38,221 nt of DNA from Bacteroidetes bacterium HGW-Bacteroidetes-21. GTDB taxonomy: Bacteria; Bacteroidota; Bacteroidia; Bacteroidales; GWA2-32-17. Positions 31,301-38,221 of the stretch are shown here, piece by piece (position 1 is the stretch's first letter; each line of letters opens with the position of its first letter). The notes beneath the pieces were generated by a model. The model did not search any database. It saw only the letters and a list, made by a program, of their open reading frames with translations, and was not told where the DNA came from. The DNA is taken from assembly GCA_002840935.1 (NCBI GenBank), contig PHDH01000009.1, forward strand, positions 1-38,221, given 5' to 3'. A program made the translations under genes and the position numbers.

Positions 31301-31318
31301 AAGAAAAGTATTTAAAAC

Positions 31319-31347
31319 AAAAAAAGCCGGTTAAACCGACTTTTTTT
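31319..31347. terminator. Bidirectional terminator between peroxiredoxin and siaC
   Basis: A7-G-C-CGGTT and AACCG-A-CT7 form a long hairpin with one mismatch and the tightest of loops; A and T runs on both sides let it work in both directions. It serves the converging peroxiredoxin and siaC genes. Confidence 0.8.
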
Positions 31348-31364
31348 GTTTTCGAAATTCAATA

Positions 31365-31745
31365 TTATTCTTCTACTTCAATCATTTTGAAGGGAACTTT
31401 TACGATAGACTGATAGTCTTCGCCTGCTTCCAGCATATCTTCATCATCTTCTTCATAATACCAATTGATGATAACTTCGTGACCAGCTTTAACGATGGTT
31501 TCAAGTTTTTTAAATACATCCAGAATACATTTTGATGAACTGGTGTTAAAATACTCCAACTGTACATGTACATCAGTTAATTTCTGGGGAGCTGCTCCGT
31601 ACTCTTCAAGCCATTCTACTAATGGTTTATAAAATTCTATGGAGTTTTCTGGTATCGATCTGCCTTTAATTTCAATCTTTCCGGTTTCAGCTTCGAACTT
31701 AACCATTGGGGTTTTTGGGGTTCCTTCAATTGTTAAAGTTTTCAT
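31365..31745 (-). CDS. SiaC-family regulatory phosphoprotein (DUF1987)
   Basis: 126 residues. Seen: TIEGTPKTPMVKFEAETGKIEIKGRSIPENSIEFYKP-type opening (strands plus the PEN motif), VHVQLEYFNTSSSKCILDVF, and an acidic tail segment WYYEEDDEDM. DUF1987 proteins correspond to Pseudomonas aeruginosa SiaC, which is phosphorylated by SiaB on Thr68; here Thr68 falls exactly within the NTSSSK motif. Unphosphorylated SiaC activates the diguanylate cyclase SiaD in Pseudomonas; the partner here is not visible. The gene follows siaB after 24 bases. Family call strong; output unknown. Confidence 0.87.
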   Translation of the reverse strand: MKTLTIEGTPKTPMVKFEAETGKIEIKGRSIPENSIEFYKPLVEWLEEYGAAPQKLTDVHVQLEYFNTSSSKCILDVFKKLETIVKAGHEVIINWYYEEDDEDMLEAGEDYQSIVKVPFKMIEVEE

Positions 31746-31769
31746 GGTTTCAATTTTTTGTAAATATAG

Positions 31770-32312
31770 TTAAACAATTGTAATTTTCAAAATGTAAAAG
31801 TACAAATTTTCATTTAACGAAATGAAATTAAATTCAAGTTTTGTACCTGTTTTTCTTGCAATGTCTATAAGACCTAAGCCTCCACCTCCTTTTTCAGAAA
31901 ATTCCTGATTATTTAAAATTAGCTTATAAAGAGCTTTCAGTTCTTCTTTATTCAGGGCATTTATTTGTTCAATACGGTCTTTTACAATCTGAATTTTTTC
32001 GGAGTGAATATAGTTGCCACACAAAAGTGTGCTATTGTTATTGTTGTAAGAAATAGAGAAAAGAGCAATTTTTTCATTTATATTATTCTCAACATCTATG
32101 GGCGAGTGATGATATATGTTTTGCAAACTTTCTACCGATACATGCATGATAATTTTAAGTTGTTTGCCAATGTCCAAATCAGAATTGGTTACACTTTCTT
32201 CGATTTTGGATATAAGATCTGTGATGATATCAGAGTCAATCCGGCCTACGTACGAGACAAGAACTTGTCCCGATACATTGTTGTTTAACCAGATTTTAGG
32301 ATCAAAACTCAT
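31770..32312 (-). CDS. SiaB-family protein kinase (DUF6272)
   Basis: 180 residues. Seen: GQVLVSYVGRIDSDII near the start, the kinase N-box-like SVESLQNIYHHS (Glu61, Asn65), and a glycine-rich ATP-lid segment KGGGGLGLIDIARKTG (141-156), the pattern of GHKL-type serine/threonine kinases of anti-sigma-factor kind. SiaB phosphorylates SiaC; the antagonist phosphatase SiaA (PP2C with HAMP) and the cyclase SiaD are absent from this window. It has 71 bases before it to the NimA-like gene, with no clear promoter seen, and heads a two-gene unit siaB-siaC. Confidence 0.86.
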   Translation of the reverse strand: MSFDPKIWLNNNVSGQVLVSYVGRIDSDIITDLISKIEESVTNSDLDIGKQLKIIMHVSVESLQNIYHHSPIDVENNINEKIALFSISYNNNNSTLLCGNYIHSEKIQIVKDRIEQINALNKEELKALYKLILNNQEFSEKGGGGLGLIDIARKTGTKLEFNFISLNENLYFYILKITIV

Positions 32313-32383: not shown

Positions 32384-32863
32384 CTATATCATTTCAAACT
32401 TTCTTCCGGTCATCTTATCGGCCTTTATTTTAATGATTACTACATTATTAACCGATGGAGCATTGAATTCGAAAGCCTGAGTAGAATATTGGGACATGAT
32501 AATTTTTAATGCTTTTAACTTTTCATCATAATTATCCGTGATTTCGGCTTGACCCCATAATAAAACGCTGCGATAACGCATCCTCCAGGAGCAAGCTACT
32601 GTCTCGTGACGGGAGAAAAATTCCTGATCAACATCAAAAGAAACACAGACGCGATTATTTTTTCTTAAAACATCAAGCTTATGCCCTTGCTTTGCACAGT
32701 GGAGATAAAGAGTGTTATCTTTGAATCCAAAATTAAAACCTAATACATAGGGGGTATCCCCATCTATCATGCCCATATGGCAATACTTTGCTTTTTTTAG
32801 TATTTCAAGTAATTCTGATTCCTGCGTTATATCTTTGATTGCGTTATCTCTCTTGTATTCCAT
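32384..32863 (-). CDS. Pyridoxamine-phosphate-oxidase-like flavin protein, NimA type
   Basis: 159 residues with the split-barrel fold: YCHMGMIDGDTPYVLGFNFGFKDNTLYLHCAKQGHKLD-type pattern, then NRVCVSFDVD and RYRSVLLWGQAEI, ending TGRKFEMI. These match the FMN-binding NimA/NimB-like family; some members reduce 5-nitroimidazoles, most have unknown substrates. It is not the pyridoxine-pathway enzyme. It sits downstream of a TetR regulator with a terminator between them, so it may be separately transcribed. Confidence 0.88.
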   Translation of the reverse strand: MEYKRDNAIKDITQESELLEILKKAKYCHMGMIDGDTPYVLGFNFGFKDNTLYLHCAKQGHKLDVLRKNNRVCVSFDVDQEFFSRHETVACSWRMRYRSVLLWGQAEITDNYDEKLKALKIIMSQYSTQAFEFNAPSVNNVVIIKIKADKMTGRKFEMI

Positions 32864-36426: not shown

Positions 36427-38221
36427 TTATCTTATTAAAGAAACTTTACCGGCTTCTTCGTGCAGCACTCCATTACTGTCTTTAAAAATGGCTATCCAGG
36501 TATATGTGCCAATGGGAGCGGGCAGATTATTTTTCACTCTTCCGTCCCAGCCTTTCAGAATGCTTTTTGATTCGAAAATAGCTTCGCCCCATCTATCGTA
36601 AATTCGTAGTTTAAAATTATCGTTATCTATGTTCGTACCATAGACCATGAAAAATTCATTTTTATTGTCTTCGTTTGGACTAAATCCTGTGGGGGCGTAG
36701 AAAGTATAATCTCCTTTTACTAATATTTTCCCCTTAACAGTATCGGAGCAACCAAAAGGACTTATTGCGACAAGAGTGACGATGTAATCTGTAGGAATAG
36801 GCGGATAAACGTGCAAAGGATGCAATTCATTGGTTGTATCTCCATCTCCGAAGAACCAGAAGTAGTCGCTGGCAAAGGTAGAGAGATTTGTAAATCGAAC
36901 TAAAGTATTGACCACATTTACGGCATTTGGATTTGCGATAAAGGCTGCTTCAGGGACTGGATACGCATTTATAAAGTCGGGCGAAATTTGCGAGGTCTGA
37001 CATCCGTTAGCCGCAGTGACTGTTAGTGATACAGTATAAGAGCCAGGCTCATCGTAAATGTGTGTTGGGGCTTTGTTTGAGCTGTAGTTTGATGACCCGA
37101 GATCTCCAAAATCCCAATGATATATCTGACCCATATCTGGACTTCCTTCGATAAAGTGAACATAAAGAGGAACGCAACCTTCAGTCGTATCAGCTACAAA
37201 AGAAACTGGGGGAGACGGTTTTATAGTGATGTTAATAAACGAAATATCTGATGGTGTTCCGCAGTTGTCACTCACTGTTACAGTAAAAGCTGTGTCGTCT
37301 TCTGTATAAAAAACATGAGGCATAGAAATCCAGTTGCCGTTTATTGAATAGCTAAGATTTCCATTGCCGCCAGATGAATTGGACGCTACTACAACAGGTT
37401 GTCCTGCGCAAATGTCGGGATTGACAGCATAAACATCGGCTGTGATTTCGGGATAAACATAAACAGTTGTATGTCTAGTCGGGCTTATACATCCTCGGGT
37501 ATCGACAGCATATACAGAATAGTTTGAAGTAACTGTAGGAGAAACGATTTGAATAGAGTCGTTGTAGTTGTTGCTCCAGAAGTAACTATACCAAGGCGTG
37601 CCTCCTGTGGCGGAACATACTATTGTAGCAGATTGTCCTATACAAATATATTGAGGTTGAGTGACATCAATAATAACTTCGCTGGGTTCATTTATGTTGA
37701 CGGATGCAATGGTGGTGCAACCGTGACTGTCGGTTACTGTTACACGGTAGTAGCCTTCGAGTAATTGCGAAAGATCTTCACTTGCCGAGCCGGTATTCCA
37801 TAAATAGGTATATGGTGGAGTGCCTCCAGAAGTAGTGATGTCTATGGAGCCGTTGTTTTCTCCAAAGCATCGTACATCAGTACCGACAATAATTGTAGAA
37901 AGAACAGCTGCGGGTTCAATAACGGTTTCAGTAATTACAAAAGTACAAAGGTGGAAGTCTGTAATAGTTAATGTATATGTTCCTGCTGGGATATTTGTTA
38001 AATCCTGTGTGTTCTGGCCGGAGCTCCAGGCATAGGAATAGGGAACAGTTCCTCCGGCTGGGGTAATGTTAATTGCCCCGGTAAAGTCTCCATGGCAAAG
38101 TACATGAGTAATTTCAGATGTAGCCGACAATGGCGCTGCTGGTTGAATAATGACTGCCTGAGCAGAGGCAGTACATAAATAACTATCACTTACAGTTACC
38201 TGATACCCACCGGGAGGCAAA
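36427..38221 (-). CDS. Large SprB/PKD-repeat surface protein with type B T9SS signal, C-terminal part
   Basis: 598 codons visible; the start lies beyond the right edge, and the in-frame TTG at 38220 is only an edge artefact. Seen: end of one SprB-type repeat, two complete ones of about 76 residues each, Ig-like segments, PKD domains near visible residues 345-408 (YHWDFGD) and 425-500 (YFWFFGDGD), and the gliding-motility-associated C-terminal domain (about 505-597: APTGFSPNEDNKNEFF, LRIYDRWGEAIFE, GTYTWIAIFKD). Such proteins are surface adhesins secreted by T9SS; SprB moves in F. johnsoniae gliding. A terminator follows. Whether it is a motility adhesin or another surface protein cannot be told. 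Confidence 0.9.
   Translation of the reverse strand, partial: LPPGGYQVTVSDSYLCTASAQAVIIQPAAPLSATSEITHVLCHGDFTGAINITPAGGTVPYSYAWSSGQNTQDLTNIPAGTYTLTITDFHLCTFVITETVIEPAAVLSTIIVGTDVRCFGENNGSIDITTSGGTPPYTYLWNTGSASEDLSQLLEGYYRVTVTDSHGCTTIASVNINEPSEVIIDVTQPQYICIGQSATIVCSATGGTPWYSYFWSNNYNDSIQIVSPTVTSNYSVYAVDTRGCISPTRHTTVYVYPEITADVYAVNPDICAGQPVVVASNSSGGNGNLSYSINGNWISMPHVFYTEDDTAFTVTVSDNCGTPSDISFINITIKPSPPVSFVADTTEGCVPLYVHFIEGSPDMGQIYHWDFGDLGSSNYSSNKAPTHIYDEPGSYTVSLTVTAANGCQTSQISPDFINAYPVPEAAFIANPNAVNVVNTLVRFTNLSTFASDYFWFFGDGDTTNELHPLHVYPPIPTDYIVTLVAISPFGCSDTVKGKILVKGDYTFYAPTGFSPNEDNKNEFFMVYGTNIDNDNFKLRIYDRWGEAIFESKSILKGWDGRVKNNLPAPIGTYTWIAIFKDSNGVLHEEAGKVSLIR
37642..38097 (-). repeat. Two tandem SprB-type repeats, about 228 bases each
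   Basis: Repeat units begin at the cysteines CHGDFTGAINIT and CFGENNGSIDIT, 76 residues apart, and share GGT-x-PY-x-Y-x-W, (N/A)GTY or EGYYRV, and TD-x-H-x-CT. A partial third copy precedes them at the right edge, so the tandem array probably continues outside the window. Confidence 0.8.

Follow-up and report, generated by a model that had tools for sequence, protein, structure and literature searches.

A SiaB-SiaC pair in a Bacteroidales genome without a GGDEF match and a TerB/ABC exporter as its possible output

The siaB-siaC locus and its neighbors

The window (the whole stretch of 38,221 nucleotides analyzed here) is nearly the entire contig C304 of a 3.9-Mb genome that is assembled in 326 contigs and is 88% complete. 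Its reverse strand carries a kinase gene followed closely by the gene of a small phospho-acceptor protein. The features of this locus are as follows.

31365..31745 (−), SiaC-family (DUF1987) phospho-acceptor protein, 126 aa (PF09345 and alignment to 6kko_C)
31542..31544 (−), Thr68 codon of siaC, predicted phospho-site (core Y65-x-N67-T68-S69; sequence and alignment)
31746..31769 (−), siaB-siaC intergenic gap, 24 bp (ORF coordinates)
31770..32312 (−), SiaB-family GHKL protein kinase, 180 aa (PF19788 and predicted fold)
31872..31892 (−), glycine-rich lid K141-GGGG-L-G147 of SiaB (alignment of 47 sequences)
32118..32132 (−), N-box E61-S-L-Q-N65 of SiaB (E61 and N65 invariant, 47/47)
31314..31352 (−), terminator-like hairpin between siaC and a convergent peroxiredoxin-like gene (18-pair stem and T tail; pattern match only)
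32384..32863 (−), pyridoxamine-oxidase-like (PNPOx) gene upstream of siaB (PF12900, E 1.1e-19)

The product of the upstream gene matched DUF6272 (PF19788) with an E value of 7.7e-32 and 110.2 bits against a Pfam cutoff of 26.6. It scored 119.5 bits on the NCBIfam model for SiaB family protein kinases (NF038262), above the cutoff of 85, and 56.8 bits on the NCBIfam equivalog model for Pseudomonas SiaB, below the cutoff of 225. Across the 47 aligned SiaB sequences, E61, N65, G145, and G147 were invariant, and K141 and G142 to G144 of the lid were at least 90% conserved. By sequence, the protein matched SiaB as crystallized with SiaC (6kko; E 1.4e-7), and the best PDB match of its predicted model (pLDDT 90.7) was the same chain, 6kko_A (Foldseek E 3.2e-9). 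It thus combines a GHKL fold with the N-box Glu and Asn and the glycine lid. The original prediction, made from the sequence alone, of a GHKL-type kinase with Glu61, Asn65, and a KGGGGLG lid was borne out by the family match, the invariant residues, and the fold; the gene at 31770 to 32312 (−) encodes a SiaB-family GHKL kinase that lies outside the Pseudomonas equivalog cutoff.

The downstream product matched PF09345 (E 9.7e-46; 154.8 bits against a Pfam cutoff of 24.5), and its residues 2 to 121 formed a gap-free alignment with P. aeruginosa SiaC (6kko_C; E 1.5e-19). On the NCBIfam equivalog model for Pseudomonas SiaC, it scored 101.4 bits, below the cutoff of 150. T68 of the window protein lies in the context YFNTSSSK, opposite YLNTSSIK in P. 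aeruginosa SiaC, and the 172 distinct SiaC sequences of the loci read have T at position 68 in 149 cases, S in 22, and K in 1; the window protein thus has both the DUF1987 profile match and a Thr at a position held by Thr or Ser in nearly all relatives. Pseudomonas SiaC is phosphorylated at T68, according to the available part of PMC7647112. T68 of the window SiaC coincides with this known phospho-threonine and is a predicted phospho-site. The claim of a DUF1987 protein 24 bases behind the kinase, with Thr68 at the phospho-site position, therefore agrees with both the profile match and the ungapped alignment.

The 24-bp gap is consistent with a single transcript. A scan with a Bacteroidota-type promoter pattern found no match upstream of siaB on the siaB strand (7 in the whole window versus 2.8 expected), and a sigma-70 scan of the window gave 11 sites versus 13.3 expected. 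Related loci were the best 80 of 565; the set given held 82 loci, the genome's own two included, and L088 and L098 dropped out of the ORF table, leaving 80 rows. Since siaB lay immediately upstream of siaC in 78 of these 80 tabulated loci (exceptions, L070 and L073), the pairing is not due to chance. Blastp relatives of the PNPOx-like gene were found in 5 of the 82 loci, the window's own counted, and this gene, conserved only in some relatives, is probably outside the switch. The TetR neighbor, which had been put forward as functional context, gives little functional hint, because its relatives occurred in only 2 of the 82 loci (the window's own and L058), versus 80 of 82 for SiaB. Housekeeping neighbors (GuaA, an S41 protease, PnuC, a NadR-like kinase, and RlmL) recur upstream of window-type SiaBC; they look like frozen gene order and were set aside. 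At positions 36427 to 38220, the window end truncates a large repeat protein with, by eye, a gliding-motility-type C-terminal region.

Phosphatases and cyclases in the genome, the order, and the phylum

The genome held two SiaC matches and three SiaB domains across two genes. At the second locus, on contig C200, a tandem SiaB-SiaB protein (375 aa) is followed by SiaC2, and genes encoding a TPR-PP2C protein and a propeller-PAS-PP2C protein adjoin the pair on the opposite strand. Both halves of the tandem kinases in the loci read kept E61 and N65 (15/15); the lid KGG, as read from the aligned segments, was retained by 14 of the 15 first halves and by none of the 15 second halves, one of which has HGG. 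No SiaA (PP2C) gene was found among the ORFs around the window siaB-siaC pair. Genome-wide, 40 stretches matched SpoIIE, 39 of them above the cutoff, and we counted approximately 32 SpoIIE/PP2C proteins, whereas a profile search of the 88% complete assembly for GGDEF returned 0 matches. The switch had been described as lacking its phosphatase and cyclase. This description fits the locus and, for the cyclase, the assembled genome as well; it fails for the phosphatase genome-wide. Likewise, the statement that only the kinase and its substrate are present is contradicted by the approximately 32 SpoIIE/PP2C proteins and by another locus, SiaBB-SiaC, next to two PP2C genes.

The best SpoIIE match of the genome was a 408-aa PP2C protein on contig C188. 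Full-length relatives, with 42 to 64% identity over its N-terminal half, were present in 15 of 15 SiaC-positive, exporter-positive genomes fetched (for the exporter, see below), which had been picked because their best SpoIIE match looked alike. In G208 (SiaC negative) and G323 (SiaC positive, without the exporter), the PP2C region alone aligned. The comparison comprised 19 rows, including the C188 protein itself and one blind stretch without a match. This protein is the first candidate for the role of SiaA.

We sampled 148 genomes of the order, of which 65 were SiaC positive and 83 SiaC negative. Follow-up searches covered all 65 positives and 15 negatives, the latter being the first listed of the 83, not a random draw, and maybe related. 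SiaB was found in 65/65 positives versus 0/15 negatives, SpoIIE in 65/65 (2 to at least 43 stretches) versus 7/15 (1 to 2 stretches), and GGDEF in 1/65 versus 0/15. At least 10 SiaC matches occurred in 30 of the 65 positives, with a maximum of 21, and SiaC matches outnumbered SiaB matches in 43 of 65. The SiaC, SiaB, and SpoIIE counts correlated across genomes (Spearman 0.64 to 0.87, relatedness not corrected for). Altogether, the kinase-substrate-phosphatase set is kept and often expanded in the order, with the cyclase almost absent. The expectation that the output may differ from that of SiaD gained support from the near absence of GGDEF in these genomes and its absence from the window's own. 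GGDEF was also found in just 1 of 20 SiaC-negative genomes of the class; because it is rare class-wide with or without SiaC (among SiaC-negative genomes, 1/20 in the class and 0/15 in the order), its absence is uninformative about SiaC. In a sample of the phylum, SiaC occurred in 13 of 198 genomes: all 8 from other classes had GGDEF (in five of them as a single weaker match, E 1.6e-11 to 8.7e-14), and the 5 from the window's class had none.

Other arrangements were seen along the way. Tandem SiaC genes, or SiaC without an adjoining kinase, occur in L156:7043-8246 (a triplet), L149, L151, L158, L159, and L181, and one SiaC doublet of this set lies beside an HD-domain gene. Lone SiaB genes in L154 and L161, from two genomes, have a uridine-kinase-like gene nearby (by eye).

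Neighbors of SiaC: an exporter and a docking helix

The commonest further neighbor of SiaBC was a protein of about 1,030 aa that combines a TerB domain with ABC ATPase and ABC-2 membrane domains. Of the 80 loci, 46 had a member of this exporter family within six genes of window-type SiaBC, and 39 had it immediately downstream, encoded on the other strand; after the exporter there often come two proteins without Pfam matches, one small and secreted-looking and the other lipoprotein-like. Paralogous operons (L150, L162, L183, and L187), and also L215 and L216 from another family, have the gene order SpoIIE-SiaB-SiaC-exporter, with the same two proteins after the exporter where the stretch was long enough. 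L219 and L224, which belong to a different class of the phylum, have SpoIIE-SiaB-SiaC-GGDEF. By gene order, the exporter in the order and GGDEF in the other class occupy the same slot after SiaC, and the effector differs.

A profile of the first 250 residues of the exporter (A1) detected it in 61 of 65 SiaC-positive versus 0 of 15 SiaC-negative genomes of the order sample. It was missing in the SiaC-positive genomes G243, G289, G304, and G323, and G274 gave a weak match only (E 2e-12). In the phylum sample, 5 of 198 genomes had the exporter, all five SiaC positive; it was found in 5/5 SiaC-positive genomes of the window's class versus 0/8 of other classes, a split that assumes the two phylum draws to be identical (the handles shown agree). 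Three genomes (G049, G146, and G186) had one SiaC but three exporters. Within-family contrasts of SiaC and exporter were few; f9 and f51 agree and f57 disagrees. The co-occurrence is partly inherited, and relatedness is a real confounder. In the window's own genome, exporter matches lie on C117, on C85 (truncated where the contig ends), and on C280 (partial), unlinked to siaBC. The C117 exporter groups (four rows, 100*) with those of L058, L059, and L210. The exporter of L058 and L059 faces PNPOx-SiaB-SiaC, which is the gene order of the window, and in the family-mate G256, SiaBC and exporter likewise lie on separate contigs (L207 and L210). A rearrangement may thus have parted the exporter from SiaBC in the window's lineage.

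The TerB domain of the exporter matched Pfam just above the cutoff (26.8 and 28.5 bits versus 24.4). An AlphaFold model of the exporter head, built on 34 sequences, reached a pLDDT of 87.9, and its helical part matched two proteins, one for tellurite resistance (2ou3, Z 7.3) and one from Porphyromonas gingivalis that lacks annotation (2h5n, Z 9.4). For the beta domain (residues ~150 to 240), the leading Foldseek rows were FHA domains, with probabilities up to 1.00 and E values of 0.005 or worse; the best FHA row (VIA, Z 7.4) is below the tool's safe level and may be chance for such folds. Pfam gave no FHA match in the exporter. The canonical FHA signature is GR/SxxH, and none was seen in the beta domain. 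With no signature residues and modest scores, a phosphothreonine-binding FHA domain in the exporter was not adopted.

SiaC binds SiaD at two helical motifs, as described in the available part of PMC8457831. A docking core, [KRM]-hydrophobic-[ATSC]-[KR]-hydrophobic-[SG]-D-x-x-Q, had 6 matches in 1,870 distinct ORFs, all of them among the 345 SiaC-adjacent ORFs, and 0 to 1 matches in each of five shuffles; the pattern was written after five of the six matches and the contact list had been seen, and only L217, a histidine kinase, was new. A profile built from the six matches (A4) found four more proteins in SiaC loci that were added later (E 5e-7 or better; next match, 0.22), all adjoining SiaC: the GGDEF protein of L224, the PP2C protein of L225, and the two-transmembrane (2-TM) proteins of L229 and L230. 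Those of L224, L229, and L230 resemble proteins already in A4, and that of L225 represents a new protein class. Against all PDB sequences, the top match of A4 was SiaD, albeit weak (E 0.032 for the whole chain, 2.5 and 230 for single pieces), and the pieces fall on its two SiaC-binding sites. A docking helix, [KR]-hydrophobic-[AT]-[KR]-hydrophobic-[SG]-D-x-x-Q, appears to be common to SiaD and to GGDEF, histidine kinase, PP2C, 2-TM coiled-coil, and small proteins. The small proteins (77 to 99 aa) adjoin SiaC in L221, L222, and L223; in L221, an ATPase with three AAA domains follows, and in L223, by eye, a similar large protein.

Docking-motif neighbors were present in 8 of the 9 SiaC loci from other classes (L217 to L225), L218 being the one without; in the window's order, L229 and L230 had one and L227 and L231 had none. 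L229 comes from G304 and L230 from G243, two of the four genomes of the order without the exporter. Beside window-type SiaC, no docking-motif protein occurred in the loci read; the profile had no significant match in those own-genome stretches that were read, which make up a small part of the genome; and the motif went undetected in the exporter by pattern and profile. A docking-like K-V-x-K-I-C-x-x-I-N at residues 77 to 86, in a TerB helix of the exporter, was discarded, as the pattern had been loosened to fit and the docking profile misses the exporter. The first 118 residues of the L219 GGDEF protein, searched against the PDB, gave nothing relevant.

Compared to P. aeruginosa SiaC, the window SiaC is changed at SiaD-contacting positions, including D29R, Y31I, D79K, R103D, L107A, and D114I (contact list from the available part of PMC8457831). 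D29R, D79K, and R103-to-acid were considered as a loss of the SiaD-type docking surface and rejected, since SiaCs with R29, K79, and an acidic residue 103 also adjoin docking-motif proteins (L220, L229, and L230). At position 107, Ala was found in 45/45 distinct exporter-adjacent versus 0/10 docking-adjacent SiaCs, and the window SiaC has A107; the split may reflect common ancestry. The SiaC tree, with few columns and weak forks, was used for nearest neighbors only. Window-type SiaC proteins are 71 to 83% identical (best 80 of 565 loci), and of the 14 SiaD-contacting positions known from Pseudomonas, 13 are fixed across all 37 exporter-facing copies, which suggests constant SiaC partners.

A SiaABC-type switch and its alternatives

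We tentatively favor, at close to an even chance, a SiaABC-type switch without c-di-GMP, formed by SiaB, T68 of SiaC, dispersed SpoIIE/PP2C phosphatases, and the exporter as the most likely effector. This reading builds on the observed families, motifs, lack of a GGDEF match, number of phosphatases, co-occurrence, and gene orders. SiaB would phosphorylate SiaC at T68, and unlinked SpoIIE/PP2C sensor phosphatases, with the C188 protein as the first candidate, would strip the phosphate from it. Unphosphorylated SiaC would then bind and switch an effector, most likely the TerB/FHA-like/ABC exporter (the C117 copy) with its lipoprotein and small secreted-looking partners. We infer both the contact between SiaC and the exporter and its direction; the exporter is nonadjacent in this genome, and convergent neighbors are weak functional evidence. 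A wider idea, of which we are less confident, is that SiaC is a general phospho-adaptor with exchangeable effectors recognized by the docking helix, and that in the window's order it was rewired to gate the exporter, with up to ~20 SiaCs and without c-di-GMP output. The general adaptor was anticipated by PMC8457831, which suggests, in its available part, that DUF1987 proteins commonly modulate adjacent proteins.

The same switch could instead have SiaC act on an unlinked effector with a SiaD-like docking helix (e.g., a kinase, a phosphatase, or a coiled-coil protein of the 2-TM kind), a reading that we consider possible but rather unlikely. Such proteins directly adjoin SiaC in ten loci, two of them (L229 and L230) in the window's order, and SiaCs with the window-like R29/K79 still adjoin them (L220, L229, and L230); however, no significant profile match was found among the ORFs of the best 80 of 565 loci or in the own-genome stretches read, and A107 places the window SiaC with the exporter-adjacent copies, although ancestry could account for this. 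If the unlinked effector is rather unlikely, a classical RsbV/RsbW-like switch, in which the kinase or SiaC controls a sigma factor, is quite improbable. The SiaB model does resemble the anti-sigma kinases SpoIIAB and RsbW (Foldseek E 0.017 to 0.17), and the nearest structural relative of SiaC is an anti-sigma antagonist, according to the available part of PMC7647112. Four of the 80 loci had a sigma-70-like ORF, all of the same cluster, no more than six genes from SiaC, and the one tested (L084:10454-11777) is an ECF sigma factor that lies two genes away from SiaC, next to an anti-sigma-like gene. Nonetheless, 4 of 80 is few, none is directly adjacent to SiaC in the table, and the window kinase is closest to SiaB by both sequence and fold.

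The two SiaC and two SiaB genes share approximately 32 phosphatases, and no other of the 65 SiaC-positive genomes has so many SpoIIE matches per SiaC match (counted in stretches, some of them being halves of a single protein). These numbers would suit a SiaC that serves mainly as a competing phosphatase substrate, in cross talk with SiaBB-SiaC2 and without an effector of its own; the sequence identity of SiaC and its fixed contact positions argue against this, and we regard it as very improbable. Lastly, a diguanylate cyclase could be encoded in the missing part of the 88% complete assembly, which would make the pathway an ordinary SiaABCD system, but the 97% complete family-mate G256 also has 0 GGDEF matches, and GGDEF is nearly absent from the SiaC-positive genomes of the order, so that this is extremely unlikely.

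The favored exporter-linked switch shares with SiaABCD, the c-di-GMP-producing biofilm pathway of P. aeruginosa (6kko, SiaB-SiaC; 7e6g, SiaC-SiaD), the adjacent SiaB and SiaC, the T68, and phosphatases of the SpoIIE/PP2C kind; unlike SiaABCD, the locus has no SiaA and the genome no GGDEF match. Rv1747 is an FHA-domain ABC transporter, and the candidate output likewise couples an FHA-like fold to an ABC exporter; it differs from this type in also having TerB, in the lack of a Pfam FHA match or visible GR/SxxH, and in its presumed partner, a GHKL/SiaC switch instead of a Hanks-type kinase. The RsbU/RsbV/RsbW and HsbR/HsbA switches have the same logic of PP2C phosphatase, GHKL kinase, and STAS-like acceptor (for HsbA, see the available part of PMC8457831), but the window proteins are closest in sequence and fold to SiaB and SiaC. 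A search of mostly nonsubscription literature, preprints excluded, turned up no publication about SiaB/SiaC of Bacteroidota and none about a TerB-ABC link. The parts are known; the wiring is new and undescribed in the literature searched, in which SiaC activates a diguanylate cyclase. A SiaABC network that spans the order and nearly lacks cyclases suggests a switch independent of c-di-GMP. The finding points to an output that can be tested and supplies a motif by which any genome could be searched for SiaC effectors, and it would provide the TerB-ABC protein with a role, as well as DUF6272, a domain of unknown function in Pfam.

Two further architectures place the switch proteins on one chain. 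Ten fetched stretches (L168 to L177; e.g., L168:5697-7253) encode single-chain SiaB-SiaB-SiaC fusions of 502 to 518 aa, and in 4 of the 10, a MurU-like nucleotidyltransferase gene (by eye) adjoins the fusion. In L220:5662-7539, a response regulator, a PP2C phosphatase, and a SiaB kinase form one protein adjoining SiaC, so that both switch enzymes lie on one polypeptide; its surroundings resemble, by eye, a flagellar gene region.
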